From the NCBI GenBank assembly GCA_963678675.1, contig OY783197.1, forward strand, positions 25,975,470-26,039,469: a stretch of 64,000 nucleotides of DNA, in the 5' to 3' direction. Below, piece by piece: positions 36,066 through 62,229 of this stretch. The stretch's first letter is position 1. Every line of letters begins with the position of its first letter. Source of the stretch: Xiphydria camelus. Taxonomy: Eukaryota; Arthropoda; Insecta; Hymenoptera; Xiphydriidae. Below the pieces are notes generated by a model. The model had not been told where the DNA came from and made no database searches. It was given only the letters and a program-made list of their open reading frames with translations. The position numbers and the translations under genes are program-made.

Positions 36066-36106
<41 letters not shown>
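36066..36106. repeat. CT microsatellite
   Basis: Perfect CT run of about 41 bp, 210 bp upstream of the exon-like 36316-36365. Confidence 0.92.
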
Positions 36107-38639: not shown

Positions 38640-41190
38640 TGGGCCACTCAAAAGATGCGGAGTCTCATTGGCCGGGACAAAAGCCCGTCGTATATGCGCG
38701 TCTCTCTCGCGCGCGCGTCGCGTTCTCTCTCTCACCGCGTGTTCTTCTTTCTTAAAACCTCTTTCACTCCCGATGTCATTGACGCGAGCGGCGCGCCATC
38801 TCTCGGCGGCGCCGGCGACATGCTATCTCTCTGGCCGCATGACCCCCTTCACCCCTCGCCCCTCGGCGCCCCAAAATTCCCTTTCACCGAAAGGGTACGA
38901 CGATCTAGATGTTTCTGCATCCGCGGCTGAAGGAAAGCCGTGGGATGCTGCAGCTTATCGCGTCGCTTGATACGAGTAGACGGAGATAAACCGGAGCTCC
39001 GCGCTACGAGAGAGCGCGCGCTCCTTTAATGAGGGCAATTTAGATTCACTCGCGATACTGCCAGCCTTTGAAAGACGGGAGTGGGTCTGAGTTGAGATCG
39101 GTAAGGTGTGGTATTGTGTTCTAGAATTAATTTCTTTTATTGGGACCACTCTGACTTTCAGAGGTTCGTTCTGGAGAACGTATTTACGTTTGCTAGAATT
39201 CAACTAAAATTATCTCGGTACCTGTGCACTTTTCGCTGATCTTGGTATAGAACTTTTTTGTAGCTCGAAATGTAATCTTCAAAAAAGTATTAGATCGACT
39301 TTATGCTAAAGTCCATATTTAACGAGATAATCGAGTTGAAAGCGAACGCTACTCTTCAATGTAGTTTTCTTTGCGAATCCATGCAATTTCTGAATAAAAA
39401 CAATGTCGAGCTAACGCGTCCAGTTCAAGGAAAGCGAGGTAGGTAAAAGAACTGCCGCGTGAAACGTGTAGGTATAGACCTCGTAAAAGTTTGGACGAAA
39501 CTTTCGTCGTAGTTACAAAATAAATTTAGTTGAGACGTTATTGTCGACGAGACGCAATTTTGTACGCGAAAGATAACAAGAAGCAGATATAAGACCGCGG
39601 GATGGGGCAGTTTTATAACGCGTCGTCCTGCCGCGAGTCCTGCGAGGAAAGTCGAAGAGGGTGGTTGGGGACGAAAGTAATTTGCACGCGGGGAGATAAA
39701 TTCTGAATTATTAAACGGACCGCGGGTTTCGACGGGGAAATAGTTTCCTGGATGCGGTGAATTATTAATTCGACTCACCCGTGATTGACTGCGATATCCT
39801 GCGATCTACTCCCGCGCGAGTCCTGTCCTCGCACTCGCGTCCGTTCGCGTTGGTGGCTCGAGAAAAAACTGAGCGGTTTTTCGAGGTTCCGGCGAAAAGT
39901 GAAATCCATCCCTACCGCTCTCAGCAAACCCCTTTTGGATACTTTCTAATTTTTAGAATTTTTATTGTGCAAGTCACTTTCTCCAACCCTTTTTCCTCAC
40001 GCCGCGTACCTTACCCTCCCTTCGACCACCGACTTCCTCCTCGAGCTAAACTCTCTCGTTTTGCTTCTTTCCTCTTTTAACCCTTTTTATGAGCGTCCTA
40101 AAAGAGAAAGTCCTGCGGATGCCGCCGCGACTCCGGTATATGCGTTGCCGCCGTTAAAAAAAACTTTAACGGAAGAGTTATGCCTGGAAAGCGGTATACC
40201 CTCGGAAAAGTAACTATTAATAATCTACCTGTCTCTCGCGTCGTTTATACATCGTCGTCGTACCGCGAGTTATAGATATCCTGAAATTGCTAATAACCTT
40301 TGGGGTCGAGGCAGGTCGAAGTGGAATGAGACACTTGTGTGTTTAAGGGTGACGATAAATTTCATTTTGCTTTCTCTAATATGCTCCGTCCGTCATTCTC
40401 TTGTGAAAGCGGCAGATTTATATCGTTGCGTTGTGTACAATTTACTGCAAATGCACGCGCTACTTGCTGGTCTCATGCGTCGGCGATGCAATTATGCCTG
40501 CCAAGAAATTATTGTATTCAAGTTTATAAAAAGATTAGCAAATTTGTCTATCAATTATTTTATATTGTATTTAAATAATTTTGATTGATGTCAAAAAAAA
40601 AATAGAAAATTTAACGAAATTTAGGGCAAATTTATAGATTATATAAAATAGCGAAAACTGCATATTATTGTGACGTTATGTAACTTACTTATTTTTTGTT
40701 ATTTTATTAGTAGCAAGAGCCCGATTGAAGTTCATCAAATAAATTGTCTCTATTTTAAAGAAACTTGTTAAATTTTCTTATTTTTTTTTTCACAAAGAAA
40801 AGATTCTTATCGGGAATGAAAAGGAAAAATACTTTTTCAAGGTAATTTTTTTATTGGAATAAATGCGTCATGTCATATAACAACGACATTGAAATTCTCA
40901 TAATTTCTAAATCATAAATTCTACGCGGCATGTCGTAAAAATAGCAGATTTTCTTTGAAGATCACATATTATTCAGACTTACATAATACATTTATCTCAA
41001 GTTTATTATTAACGATTAATTATAATACAAATTTTCCTAAGACTAAGTCTAGTAAACCCTGGCAATACATTAGAGTGAAAGCATAAATATCTCAGCAGAT
41101 TACACAAAAAACAAGAGCAATTCAGGACAGCAAGAATCCGCAATATTTCTCACTAGAATTACAAAAATTAATTCTCGCGTTCAGTTAAGT
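38640..41190. other. intergenic, no supported gene
   Basis: GC-rich to 39000, mixed to 40330, then strongly AT-rich (40560-41190) up to the miRNA locus. The short frames lack domains. No promoter could be picked out for either miRNA strand. Confidence 0.35.
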
Positions 41191-41336
41191 TTGCGAATGA
41201 CCAAAAGTCAATTTCTTCAAACCCAACGACCCCCGCTGGTCCACCGAACCATCAAAATCATCGTCGTCCAACCATCAGCGCCCAGCATCCCAGGGTCCAT
41301 CGCAGCGAAGTCCAACGAAGTACGGTGTAGCCTCCT

Positions 41337-41395
41337 GTTACGTATACTGAAGGTATACCGGACAGGAATACACTCAGGATACATTCAGTATACGT
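41337..41395 (-). ncRNA. mir-iab-4: microRNA iab-4 (minus strand; 5p and 3p arms)
   Basis: Read on the minus strand, the 5p arm occupies 41374-41395 and begins ACGTATACTGAATGTATCC; the 3p arm occupies 41337-41360 and begins CGGTATACCTTCAGTATACG. These agree with the iab-4-5p and iab-4-3p sequences known from flies and other arthropods. In Drosophila iab-4-5p represses Ubx, and its forced expression gives haltere-to-wing changes. The host transcript would run leftward here. No promoter for it could be identified. Confidence 0.94.
41338..41395 (+). ncRNA. mir-iab-8: microRNA iab-8 (plus strand; 5p and 3p arms)
   Basis: On the plus strand the 5p arm occupies 41338-41360 (starts TTACGTATACTGAAGG) and the 3p arm 41376-41395 (AGGATACATTCAGTATACGT). 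These are the known iab-8 (iab-4 antisense) products. In Drosophila iab-8 is made from a long spliced RNA that starts near Abd-B and runs toward abd-A. It represses Ubx, abd-A and Hox cofactors and affects fertility and behaviour. If orientation is conserved, the + strand is the Hox-sense strand, Abd-B lies upstream of position 1 and abd-A beyond 64000. Confidence 0.92.
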
Positions 41396-41965
41396 ACAGG
41401 GGGTTCCACATTCCTCATCGCGCCGATCATCGAACCGCGAGCGCCGCCGAAGATCCCCCGCCGCGATCATCGGATCGAACGTCGTCCGACACTGCGTGAA
41501 GAAGTTCGCCATTTCGGGCCAACGAACTGCAGTCACCGTGTTACAGACGACTTCGCCGTCGCTCGAGACGATATACCCGGGACGATCAGGGGTGTGAGAG
41601 ACGCGTCGTATCGGCTCCACCCTACGAGCGTCTACAATAGCTCGTGATCCAGTTTGAATGCGTCGCTCTCGTGGAGGGGTAAACAAGTCGTACCGGCGAG
41701 GCGAAATAACGGAAATCAAGGGACCGTTGCAACGCTCCGCGGAAGTGTCCAGGTCGTGGGCTATCGATCCACCCCCGCGTCGTTGAACTCTGTACGTGTA
41801 TTCGGTCGGATAATAATTCAGCAGCAGCACCACCGGCAGCCGTTCCGGACCATTCGCGTTCCGTTAAAATTTTAGATGCCCCCGATGTGTGCGCTGGCGC
41901 CAATGGGAATATCGCGTGTGGATTATAAATCATGCAGGCGCACATTCGTGTTGCCTCTCATTCCA

Positions 41966-41966
<1 letters not shown>

Positions 41967-42000
<34 letters not shown>
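41967..42000. repeat. CT microsatellite
   Basis: Interrupted CT run; a GA run follows at 42221-42238. Confidence 0.9.
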
Positions 42001-42001
<1 letters not shown>

Positions 42002-42099
42002 CTCCCTCTCCTCTTTCTCTTCCTCCCCGTTCGACTGCATGGATACGAGATGAGAATACGGGACCGCATCTGCCTGCGAACATAAATCACGCTCGAGTT

Positions 42100-44030
42100 A
42101 TTAATGGGCTTTTGTGCGCCGCGTAGATACGAGCGTATATACGCGTATAGGTGCGCTCGCGATAGGGCGGTTCCGGGGGGAGGGCGCGATGGTATATATG
42201 GATATCCTCGATGGGAAATGCGAGAGAGAGAGAGAGAGGCCAGCCTCTCTCTCTACCTCTCTGCGGTAATGGAAGGGAATCACTTCGAGACCACCACCGC
42301 TCATACACCACCTACACTCCCGAGTGCCTTGCCGTATACATAGATCGCCGCGGCGAACGAGTGACTTAAGGATGCCCCGAGGGGCTATGAAACCCACTGT
42401 GCCGCGGCGTCCGACAGGTTGCCTACTATTGGGGGCCCGGCGCGGTTTCCCTTCCTCAAAATACGACCGTATCCGGCGTGACGGGAGAATCGATACGCTA
42501 TACCGCGCGAGCCGCACACATGCCGCGGACGGCGTTCGAACGGGTGGCGGAGAAACGGACGAATTCGAAGTTTCGGGGCTGAGTACTGACCTTCTTTGTT
42601 CTCGGCAGAGTGACTCGCTCGACGCACGACCACCACCGTCATCATCACCCCCTCTCCTCGGTGAACCACATCCTCTCGTGTCTTTCTCCGTCTCCCTCCC
42701 GACGAATCGCCTCTCGTCGACGGCGAACGACACCTTCTGAAAATATTCTCCTTTAAAGCGCGTCAGTGTTCCGCCGACAGGACCCTCCCAACGTATACCA
42801 AATCGCCCGCCACTTTCCGATCGACGTCTCCCACGCGAACGCACACTCTTCCGGGCCTCTCTCCACCTTTCCCTCTTCCTTCTTCCCCGCGCGCATCGAC
42901 GGACCGGTTCCAGCAGACGACAGCGGGCAGGCGAGCCAAGTTCCGACGCCCTCTCCTCGCACGCGCGACCGGAGAGCGGCGACTGACGCGGTCGCTCGCG
43001 AGTGCGGTAGGACGGGGATGCTTCGCGCGGGGGTTGGCCGCGTAAACCCGACGCGGGATGTCGAATGTCAGATCCCAACGTGCCCGGTGCACGGCCCGCG
43101 CCTGACTGGCGATGTCCGCCGTCGACGCGGCGCTGTCCGACACGGCGCCCGACCCACACGTCACTCGCGATGCGTACGATATCAAACTCTCCTCGTCCTT
43201 TACTCGGGAACGGCGCGCGTGCACCGCGCGGTCGAGGTGTCGACGCTCCGTGGGAGCGGCGAGACGAAGGCCTCGCCGACGCCGACGCCACGCGGCGTCG
43301 CTCTGCGCCCGATTTCGTTAGGGACCGCTCGTGGTATGAGTCGCTCGCACACGAGCGTGCACGGCGGGGTGGCGAGCGTAGTGGTACCTCGGTCGTGAAG
43401 GGACGCCGAAGAGGGGCGGCACTTGATAACGCGCAGGGTCGACCAACCCCTCTCCCGCCGGGCGACCATGTTTCCCTTCCGCGTACGCGCGCTGCCGGCG
43501 GCTGTACGCGTCGGTTTGATTCAGAGTTCGGCGTATCTCTCGCGTTCTCTCGCTCTCATCTCCGCGCGTCGCCCTCCCTCTCGCACGCCGTATCTCGCTT
43601 CGGTACTCCCTTCCCCGTCTCCGTGGCTCCCCTTCCGTCCGGACGTCGCGTGCGCGAATACCGCGCGCGCGCGAGTGTGCGCGAGTGTCGATGCGGGCTC
43701 GGGCTTTCGGGGCCACCCCTGGTCTCTGCGCGCAGCCTCTGGCGCCACCAGACGTTTACGGAGGGAAACTCCTCGTTCGCCCCGCTACTCGTTTTATTGC
43801 GTAATCCTGAAAGAAGGAAGAAAAAAAGAAGAGGAAGGCGACGACAATGGCTTCGTTCTCTTCTCCGCTTTATGTCCACGCGGCGACGGCTACCGTCGGC
43901 CTTACGAGTTGACGGTACATTCCTCACAGATGGCACTGATTAATCCGGGATCCGTGGCTAGTCCCTCGCGCTGCTGCAGCTTCCGAGGGAGCCGGTCGGC
44001 TGGATTTTTTCCTCGGGGATCGTATCGGGT
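42100..44030. other. very GC-rich block open on both strands
   Basis: CpG-saturated DNA with a 396-codon minus frame (42101-43291) and a 292-codon plus frame (43065-43943) overlapping in antisense. Both translate to Arg/Ser/Pro/Gly-rich sequence without any known domain, and the minus frame runs through the GA tract. I read the open frames as a product of few A/T-containing stop codons. A CpG-rich promoter or non-coding exon is possible. Confidence 0.35.
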
Positions 44031-55118: not shown

Positions 55119-55340
55119 GCACATTGTAAGGAAAATTTGTGTTAAACTTAACGCAATTGTGGGTAAAGCTTTCATTCGATATGTCATTATGAAAATTAAC
55201 ATACTTCGCTATGAATTTTATATTCAATTTAGTATGATTGTATAATATATAAAGTTCGACAAAGATTTAATGAATATTTCACAAGGAGGTATATTTTTTA
55301 CAGTTATCTGCACGTTGAATAAAAGCTAAAATCAGCGCTT
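55119..55340. mobile_element. MITE family H, copy (truncated on the right)
   Basis: It begins CACATTGTAAGGAAAATTTG and carries GTGTTAAACTTAACGCAATT and AATATATAAAGTTCGACAAA. It breaks off where the inverted-repeat array starts. Confidence 0.7.
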
Positions 55341-56540
55341 AAGATTTTGACAAAAATCGAAATCTCTGGAATCGAACTCTCGACCATCCTATCTTGTGTA
55401 ATTGTTCGCGTTGATTACGAAAATCATTAATATATTGAGGAAATCTCAAAGGAACACCGAGATATCCATGATTCTTTTATGAAAAAATAATTTTTCCGAA
55501 CATAAAATCGCTGATATCTCACATTTCCTTTGAGATATGGACCTGATTACCATGATTTTCGGAATCAGCGTGAAAAAATACATAAGATAGGATGGTCGAG
55601 AGTTCGATTCCAGAGATTTCGATTTTTGTCAAAATCGTGAGTATATTAAGATTTTGACAAAAATCGAAATCTCTGGAATCGAACTCTCGACCACCCTATC
55701 CGATGTATTTTTTCACGCTGATTCCGAAAATGGCAGATATATTGACGATATCTCAAAGGAAATATAAGATATCGTTGATTTCATGTACCAGAAAATTACT
55801 TTTTTCACGGAAAATCATCGATATCTCGGTCTTCCTTTGAGATATCCTCAATATATTTATAATTTTCGTAATCAGCGCGAAAAAATACATAAGATAGGAT
55901 GGTCGAGAGTTCGATTCCAGAGATTTCGATTTTTGTCAAAATCGTGAGTATATGCCTTAAGATTTTGACAAAAATCGAAATCTCTGGAATCAAACTCTCG
56001 ACCATCCTATCTTATGTATTTTTTCGCGCTGATTACGAAAATTATAGATATATCGAGGATATCTCAAAGGAAGACCGAACTATCGATGATTTTCCGTGAA
56101 AAAAAGAATTTTTTGGTACATGAAATCACCGATATCTTATATTTCCTTTGAGATATCGTCAATATAACTGCCATTTTCGGAATCAGCGTGAAAAAATACA
56201 CCGGATAGGGTGGTCGAGAGATCGATTTCAGAGATTTCAATTTTCGCGAAAAATTGGACTCTCAACCATCCTATCTTATGTATTTTTTCGTGCTGATTAC
56301 GAAAATTATAGATATATCGAGGATATCTCAAAGGAAGACCGAAATATCGATGATTTTCCGTGGAAAAAAAAAAAAGAATTTTCTGGTATTTTAGGTACAT
56401 GAAATCACCAATATCTTATATTTCCTTTGAGATATCGTCAATATATCTGCCATTTTCAAAATCAGCGTGAAAAAATACATCGGACAGGGGGTGGAGAGAT
56501 CGATTTCAGAGACTTCAATTTTCGCGAAAAATTGAAAAAA
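55341..56540. repeat. array of four tandem fold-back units (about 306 bp each)
   Basis: Units start near 55341, 55647, 55957 and 56253. Each opens with GATTTTGACAAAAATCGAAA (decayed in the last) and closes with its complement, so every unit is itself a hairpin. Arms carry TCTCTGGAATCGAACTCTCG, CCATCCTATCTTATG and GATATCTCAAAGGAA and their complements. Units differ by scattered substitutions. Short frames of about 66 codons on opposite strands are mirror images. GTTCGATTCC in each arm fits a pol III B box, but no A box or tRNA fold is present. Confidence 0.88.
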
Positions 56541-57263: not shown

Positions 57264-57334
57264 TGCGGAGAAAAAAAAATCAGTTAAATCCACTGAAAAT
57301 TACTTGCCGGGTCGCGAGTAATTATTTATTTATA

Positions 57335-58267
57335 GGGGAAGGTGGGGTAAGATGGGGTACTTAAAGTTCAATTGCTTCTAGAAAATTAATTTTCCCAGGA
57401 AATTGAATGGACAATTGCACTTCGTATTGTTCAATAAGTTGTTGACTATATTCGATATACAGAAGAGCGACTAAAAGTGATTATGAACATTAAGACGAAT
57501 TATAATGAAAACATCTAAAAGTCCCCATCTTGCCCCACCTACGGGGCAAGATGGGGTACCATATATACGTATGGAACTAATTATGGAATACGCAAACGTG
57601 CGCCACATCGTTATTTTTCTCCTCTTCTCCAGCACAGGAGTAATGTGCTGGAGCTTCCGATATTCACTCAGGCTTTCTAAATGTGATGAACTTGAATTTC
57701 TTTTAAAAATCAACCACAACCATTCTTCTCCAGCTTCAGTTTTATCGAAGTTAAAAGGGTGTTCTTTGTTTTTTCGAATCACCAACTGATATGCTAACTT
57801 TTTCAAGTCAGAAGTAGAAAGACCAAAAAGTCGACCTTCCATAGACGCCCCCATCTTGCCCCGTATATATGTCCCCATCTTACCCCTACATGACATTTTG
57901 AGATTAAATGTGTTCAAATTGCTTACACTTTAAACACAATTATATTAACTATACATGATATTAATCATAAAGAAGCAAATATTAAGCAAAGGCATGTAGT
58001 TTATATTAAAATGGCACTGTACTTACGATAACTGCACTGAAATCAGCTTCGAATAAAATAGCAATCTCTTAGGACATATAGCACGACATATATATTCTAT
58101 GACAACATGAGAATAACTGGCGCTAGCGTCGCCAGACTTACAGCAAACACTAATAGGCGTATTCCGAAGCCATTTTTGAGGTAGTTCGAAAGATGGCACC
58201 ACTATTAACATAAATAATAACGGGTACCCCATCTTACCCCATGGCCCCATCTTGCCCCACCTTCCCC
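57335..58267. mobile_element. 933 bp pogo/Tigger-like DNA transposon, non-autonomous
   Basis: The left terminus GGGGAAGGTGGGGTAAGATG and the inverted right terminus (complement GGGGAAGGTGGGGCAAGATG) differ at one base in 23. TA is duplicated on both sides (57333-57334 and 58268-58269). The 14-mer GGGGYAAGATGGGG or its complement occurs seven times: 57344, 57523, 57543, 57849, 57873, 58227 and 58245. A transposase fragment lies inside on the minus strand. At 933 bp it is far too short for a full pogo transposase plus ends. Confidence 0.87.
57672..57833 (-). pseudogene. pogo/Tigger-like transposase remnant (CENP-B-type HTH)
   Basis: Minus-strand translation includes RLFGLSTSDLKKLAYQLV, then NKEHPFNFDKTEAGEEWLW and FKRNSSSSHLE. 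This order (FGL-S/T-DLRKLAYQL, a PHPF-N-K--AGE-WL step, then F-RR) is that of the second DNA-binding helix-turn-helix of insect pogo/Tigger transposases of the jerky/CENP-B class, from my knowledge of the family. Only about 54 residues survive. The DDE catalytic domain is absent, and the upstream part of the frame runs into the GGGGCAAGATGGGG repeats, so it is a dead fragment. Confidence 0.7.
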
Positions 58268-58345
58268 TATCCACGAAATGTTTTAATACATCAATTGGAA
58301 AGTATCCCTTGCAATCTTGTGAAATAGCATCTGACAGTAAGGAAT

Positions 58346-62144: not shown

Positions 62145-62152
<8 letters not shown>
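61703..62152. other. intergenic, no supported gene
   Basis: No recognisable feature between the GAA and CT microsatellites. Confidence 0.35.

Positions 62153-62153
<1 letters not shown>

Positions 62154-62221
<68 letters not shown>
62154..62221. repeat. CT microsatellite, 34 perfect units
   Basis: An uninterrupted CT run of 68 bp, the longest in the window. It creates poly-Ser/Leu frames on + and poly-Arg/Glu frames on -. A shorter CT run follows at 62452-62482. On the minus strand it is a long GAGA array. Confidence 0.97.
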
Positions 62222-62223
<2 letters not shown>

Positions 62224-62229
62224 TCTCTG

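Follow-up and report, generated by a model that had tools for sequence, protein, structure and literature searches.

The iab-4/iab-8 microRNA locus is already known across arthropods, and a published passage describes both the hairpin and its position as conserved in this group, calling the position typical. In the fly and the beetle, both strands are transcribed and the products repress Hox genes, and in two millipedes, iab-8 represses Hox genes in reporter assays (PMC7523956, in excerpt). Detection of ame-miR-iab-4-5p is recorded for diploid embryos of the honeybee (in a passage of PMC4713447), and the bithorax map of the bumble bee shows both mir-iab4 and the iab8 long non-coding RNA (PMC10724181, figure legend). 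The locus is absent from Tetranychus and, in Metaseiulus, it lies on a Dfd-containing scaffold. Vertebrate mir-196 is likewise a Hox-cluster microRNA in a comparable position, but it is without sequence homology to iab-4/iab-8 (PMC3290615, in excerpt). The element described here is a hairpin in a stretch of 64 000 nucleotides (64 kb) from Xiphydria camelus (contig OY783197.1, positions 25,975,470 to 26,039,469 of the forward strand), referred to below as the window. With a probability of about 0.87, we take it to be the orthologue of the bidirectional arthropod locus, a reading that includes its placement in the Hox cluster and its function on two strands, in what is probably a hymenopteran-like genome. 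It is one more conserved copy, and its parts are as follows:

41332..41402, both strands: iab-4/iab-8 hairpin, from the full RF00725 model, the predicted folds and the pairing map
41376..41395, + strand: 20-nt core of what we take to be miR-iab-8-3p, exact match
41338..41360, + strand: miR-iab-8-5p (iab-4as-5p), exact 23-nt match, with name and sequence in the silkworm small-RNA table of PMC2824724
41374..41395, - strand: miR-iab-4-5p, exact 22-nt match (same table)
41337..41360, - strand: miR-iab-4-3p, exact 24-nt match (same table)

The observation itself is confirmed: the segment 41332-41402 is an intact, near-symmetric iab-4/iab-8 microRNA hairpin. A search of the whole window against Rfam with cmscan gave a match to RF00725 (mir-iab-4) on the + strand, spanning model positions 1-71 of 71, with a score of 100.7 bits (E 1.4e-22; gathering score 73). 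This is the sole Rfam match above gathering score in the window, and the family named in the preliminary description stands. At looser thresholds, the - strand of the hairpin also matches RF00725, albeit below the gathering score, at 43.7 bits (E 2.9e-6); a lower value is expected here because the printed mir-iab-4 consensus reads in the iab-8 direction. The 96-nt hairpin region folds at -44.1 kcal/mol (z -6.9) on the + strand and at -38.2 kcal/mol (z -5.0) on the - strand, and in each case the energy was equalled by none of 200 shuffles. Additionally, a 20-letter arm pattern, allowing up to three mismatches, has three matches in the window as against 0.06 expected, and all three are inside 41340-41395.

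The query strings for the four mature arms all match the window exactly, as had been claimed in the preliminary description (miR-iab-8-3p through its 20-nt core), and three of the four are confirmed in print. The remaining name, miR-iab-8-3p for 41376-41395 on the + strand, is our presumption, its string being absent from each of the 15 papers listed in a search of literature text. The Rfam name does not decide which strand is which, because the printed 'mir-iab-4' consensus runs in the iab-8 direction; the decision comes from the silkworm small-RNA table (PMC2824724), which prints miR-iab-4, miR-iab-4-3p and miR-iab-4as-5p, the last of these being iab-8-5p, and in which there are reads from both strands, 18 of them for the antisense strand. 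Judged by its sequence, the + strand is iab-8 and the - strand iab-4, as first proposed, in agreement with the small RNAs of that table.

Relative to the Rfam consensus, 67 of the 71 positions are identical, and none of the four differences falls within a mature arm. Two of them, at 41335 and 41399, pair with one another (C-G for G-C), and this change is compensatory, such that the stem is kept. A third, at 41363, is a loop base, whereas the fourth, at 41401, lies in the basal stem, where the pair 41333:41401 is a U-G wobble on the + strand and a C/A mismatch on the - strand. In these features, the copy is unlike the consensus; it is like the known arthropod loci (Drosophila, Bombyx, Tribolium and millipedes) in having the full 71-position hairpin, unchanged arms and folding on both strands. 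We also count as a likeness to those loci that the open reading frames (ORFs) of the window are without Pfam domains: a Pfam search of all 97 stop-to-stop ORFs that reach 110 amino acids (aa) gave no match (10 searched at E 0.1 and 87 at E 0.001), as is expected of Hox intergenic DNA. The stop-to-stop ORFs that span the hairpin (41074-41499 on the + strand and 41258-41863 on the - strand) likewise have no Pfam match and were rejected as genes.

According to the preliminary description, the hairpin fixes the window in the Abd-B/abd-A interval. By the conserved position in other arthropods, such a placement is probable, but the neighbourhood is unproven because no Hox exon was found in the window: four queries detected neither a homeobox nor an abd-A hexapeptide region in the 64 kb (best E 0.14). 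As controls for the abd-A-like and Abd-B-like queries, two of the four, spiked homeodomain copies with 15-45% of their residues redrawn at random were searched for, and six of six were recovered, at E 5.9e-20 or better. This negative result weighs against orthology in the full sense given above, as do several further observations, namely, the weaker 96-nt fold of the - strand, the single C/A mismatch in its basal stem where the + strand has U-G, the rank of the hairpin by raw fold energy (20th among 25 strand-places in the list from a window-wide scan) and the report that Antp, a predicted iab-4 target, is not greatly affected by this microRNA in fly embryos (a passage of PMC3290615). Because 19 of the 25 listed places fold to lower energies, raw energy has no diagnostic value here. 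When 131 nt are folded, the two strands are about equal, at -49.6 and -49.7 kcal/mol.

The absence of a detected homeobox from 64 kb, and the precedent of the Metaseiulus locus with its Dfd-containing scaffold, could also be accommodated by a real iab-4/iab-8 hairpin that has been relocated outside the abd-A/Abd-B interval, in a split or rearranged Hox cluster; set against the published description of the position as typical for arthropods, we consider this very unlikely. An equally small chance attaches to the proposal that one strand alone gives a working microRNA, the match on the other being a by-product of a near-perfect hairpin that resembles its own reverse complement. Any good hairpin has this property, and the drop in Rfam score on the - strand and the better 96-nt fold on the + strand both lean the same way, but all arm positions equal the consensus, including those mismatched positions that distinguish the strands, and the silkworm reads come from both strands, the antisense included (PMC2824724, small-RNA table). 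That the hairpin is a dead or chance copy, such as a pseudogene or a repeat, has a negligible probability: no point was found in its favour, whereas the arms are unchanged, the stem carries a compensatory change and the window holds no second copy at up to three mismatches.

If the hairpin is indeed the orthologue of the two-strand arthropod locus, then, by analogy, it most likely acts as in the fly and the beetle, that is, as a two-strand microRNA that represses posterior Hox genes. A long non-coding RNA would be transcribed on the + strand in the direction of abd-A, coming from the side of Abd-B, which is expected at lower coordinates of the window, and cutting of this RNA by Drosha and Dicer would release miR-iab-8; an opposing transcript of the - strand would yield miR-iab-4. 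Both 5p products would then act as repressors of Ubx and abd-A, in the posterior nervous system as well as in posterior segments. A 2-nt offset between their 5' ends gives these two products different seeds. The hairpin also provides a landmark by which the window can be oriented, the + strand presumably running from Abd-B to abd-A, and it marks the 64 kb around it as DNA that probably has a role in Hox regulation.

As a whole, the window has 45% GC and a CpG observed/expected ratio of 1.55; such an excess of CpG occurs in hymenopteran genomes, and we take the overall composition to be hymenopteran-like, in the manner of bee and ant genomes. Adjoining the hairpin, upstream on the iab-4 strand, the segment 41501-44000 is GC-rich with CT/GA runs and reaches 69% GC in what is the GC-richest 500-bp bin. 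The bins ranked first, fourth and fifth of 128 by GC fall at 42501-44000, a short way to the right of the hairpin. GAGAG/CTCTC sites number 14 in the bin at 41501 and 12 in the bin at 42001, both of which are among the 12 highest of the 128 bins. As a guess, 41501-44000 could hold a promoter or a Polycomb-type element for the - strand transcript.

A CNNC motif 3' of the hairpin is a signal for microRNA processing, and candidates are present on both strands:

41413..41416, + strand: CNNC motif, putative processing signal, about 16-18 nt beyond the end of the + strand 3' arm; one of four CNNC starts in the 35 nt of 41396-41430, and possibly there by chance
41317..41320, - strand: CNNC motif, putative processing signal, 17 nt beyond the end of iab-4-3p; one of five CNNC starts in 38 nt, and again possibly there by chance

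A direct periodicity of 11 nt was spotted post hoc on the iab-4 (-) strand at 41363-41400, where a lag of 11 gives 17 matches in 22 positions; at other lags, the score is at most 8/22 (lags 8-10) or 11/22 (lags 12-14). The Rfam consensus has the same lag-11 score, 17/22, and the periodicity belongs to the whole arthropod family, not to this genome. The 22-nt score was reached by 1, 5 and 43 of 2000 dinucleotide shuffles, hairpin-preserving shuffles and random 71-mers from the window, respectively. In the same order, the corresponding counts per 2000 are 7, 17 and 48 for a 16-nt version and 154, 184 and 314 for an 11-nt version. A speculative and rather unlikely origin for the iab-4/iab-8 hairpin would be a short tandem repeat, with the 11-nt units ACGUAUACUGA, AUGUAUCCUGA and GUGUAUUCCUG folded onto an inverted copy. 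Were this so, miR-iab-4-5p would be nearly a dimer (9/11 identical), its 3' half echoing the seed half, and the repeat could help to explain why the products of the two strands can have Hox target sites in common.

Elsewhere in the window, 55338-56508 is occupied by an array of long inverted repeats in units of about 300 bp (period 307 and 2.9 copies, as found by TRF). The arms of its two longest inverted-repeat pairs are 297 and 299 nt in length, and 94% and 86% complementary, respectively, and among all hairpins predicted in the window, those of the array are the strongest. Matches to MIR7533, MIR837, MIR8007, mir-737, mir-4520 and mir-1829 at 55.3-56.5 kb are below gathering score and lie inside this array; they were rejected as microRNAs. 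Inverted repeats of 26 nt (96% complementary) delimit a further element, at 57332-58270, which has TA at each outer end and in these features resembles a TA-targeting DNA transposon or a miniature inverted-repeat transposable element (MITE). The ORF of 152 aa within it (57471-57929, - strand) matches nothing in Pfam, and none of nine candidates was a homologue at E 0.001. Finally, there are two (TC)n microsatellites, one of 84 bp at 62145-62228 and another of 41 bp at 36066-36106.
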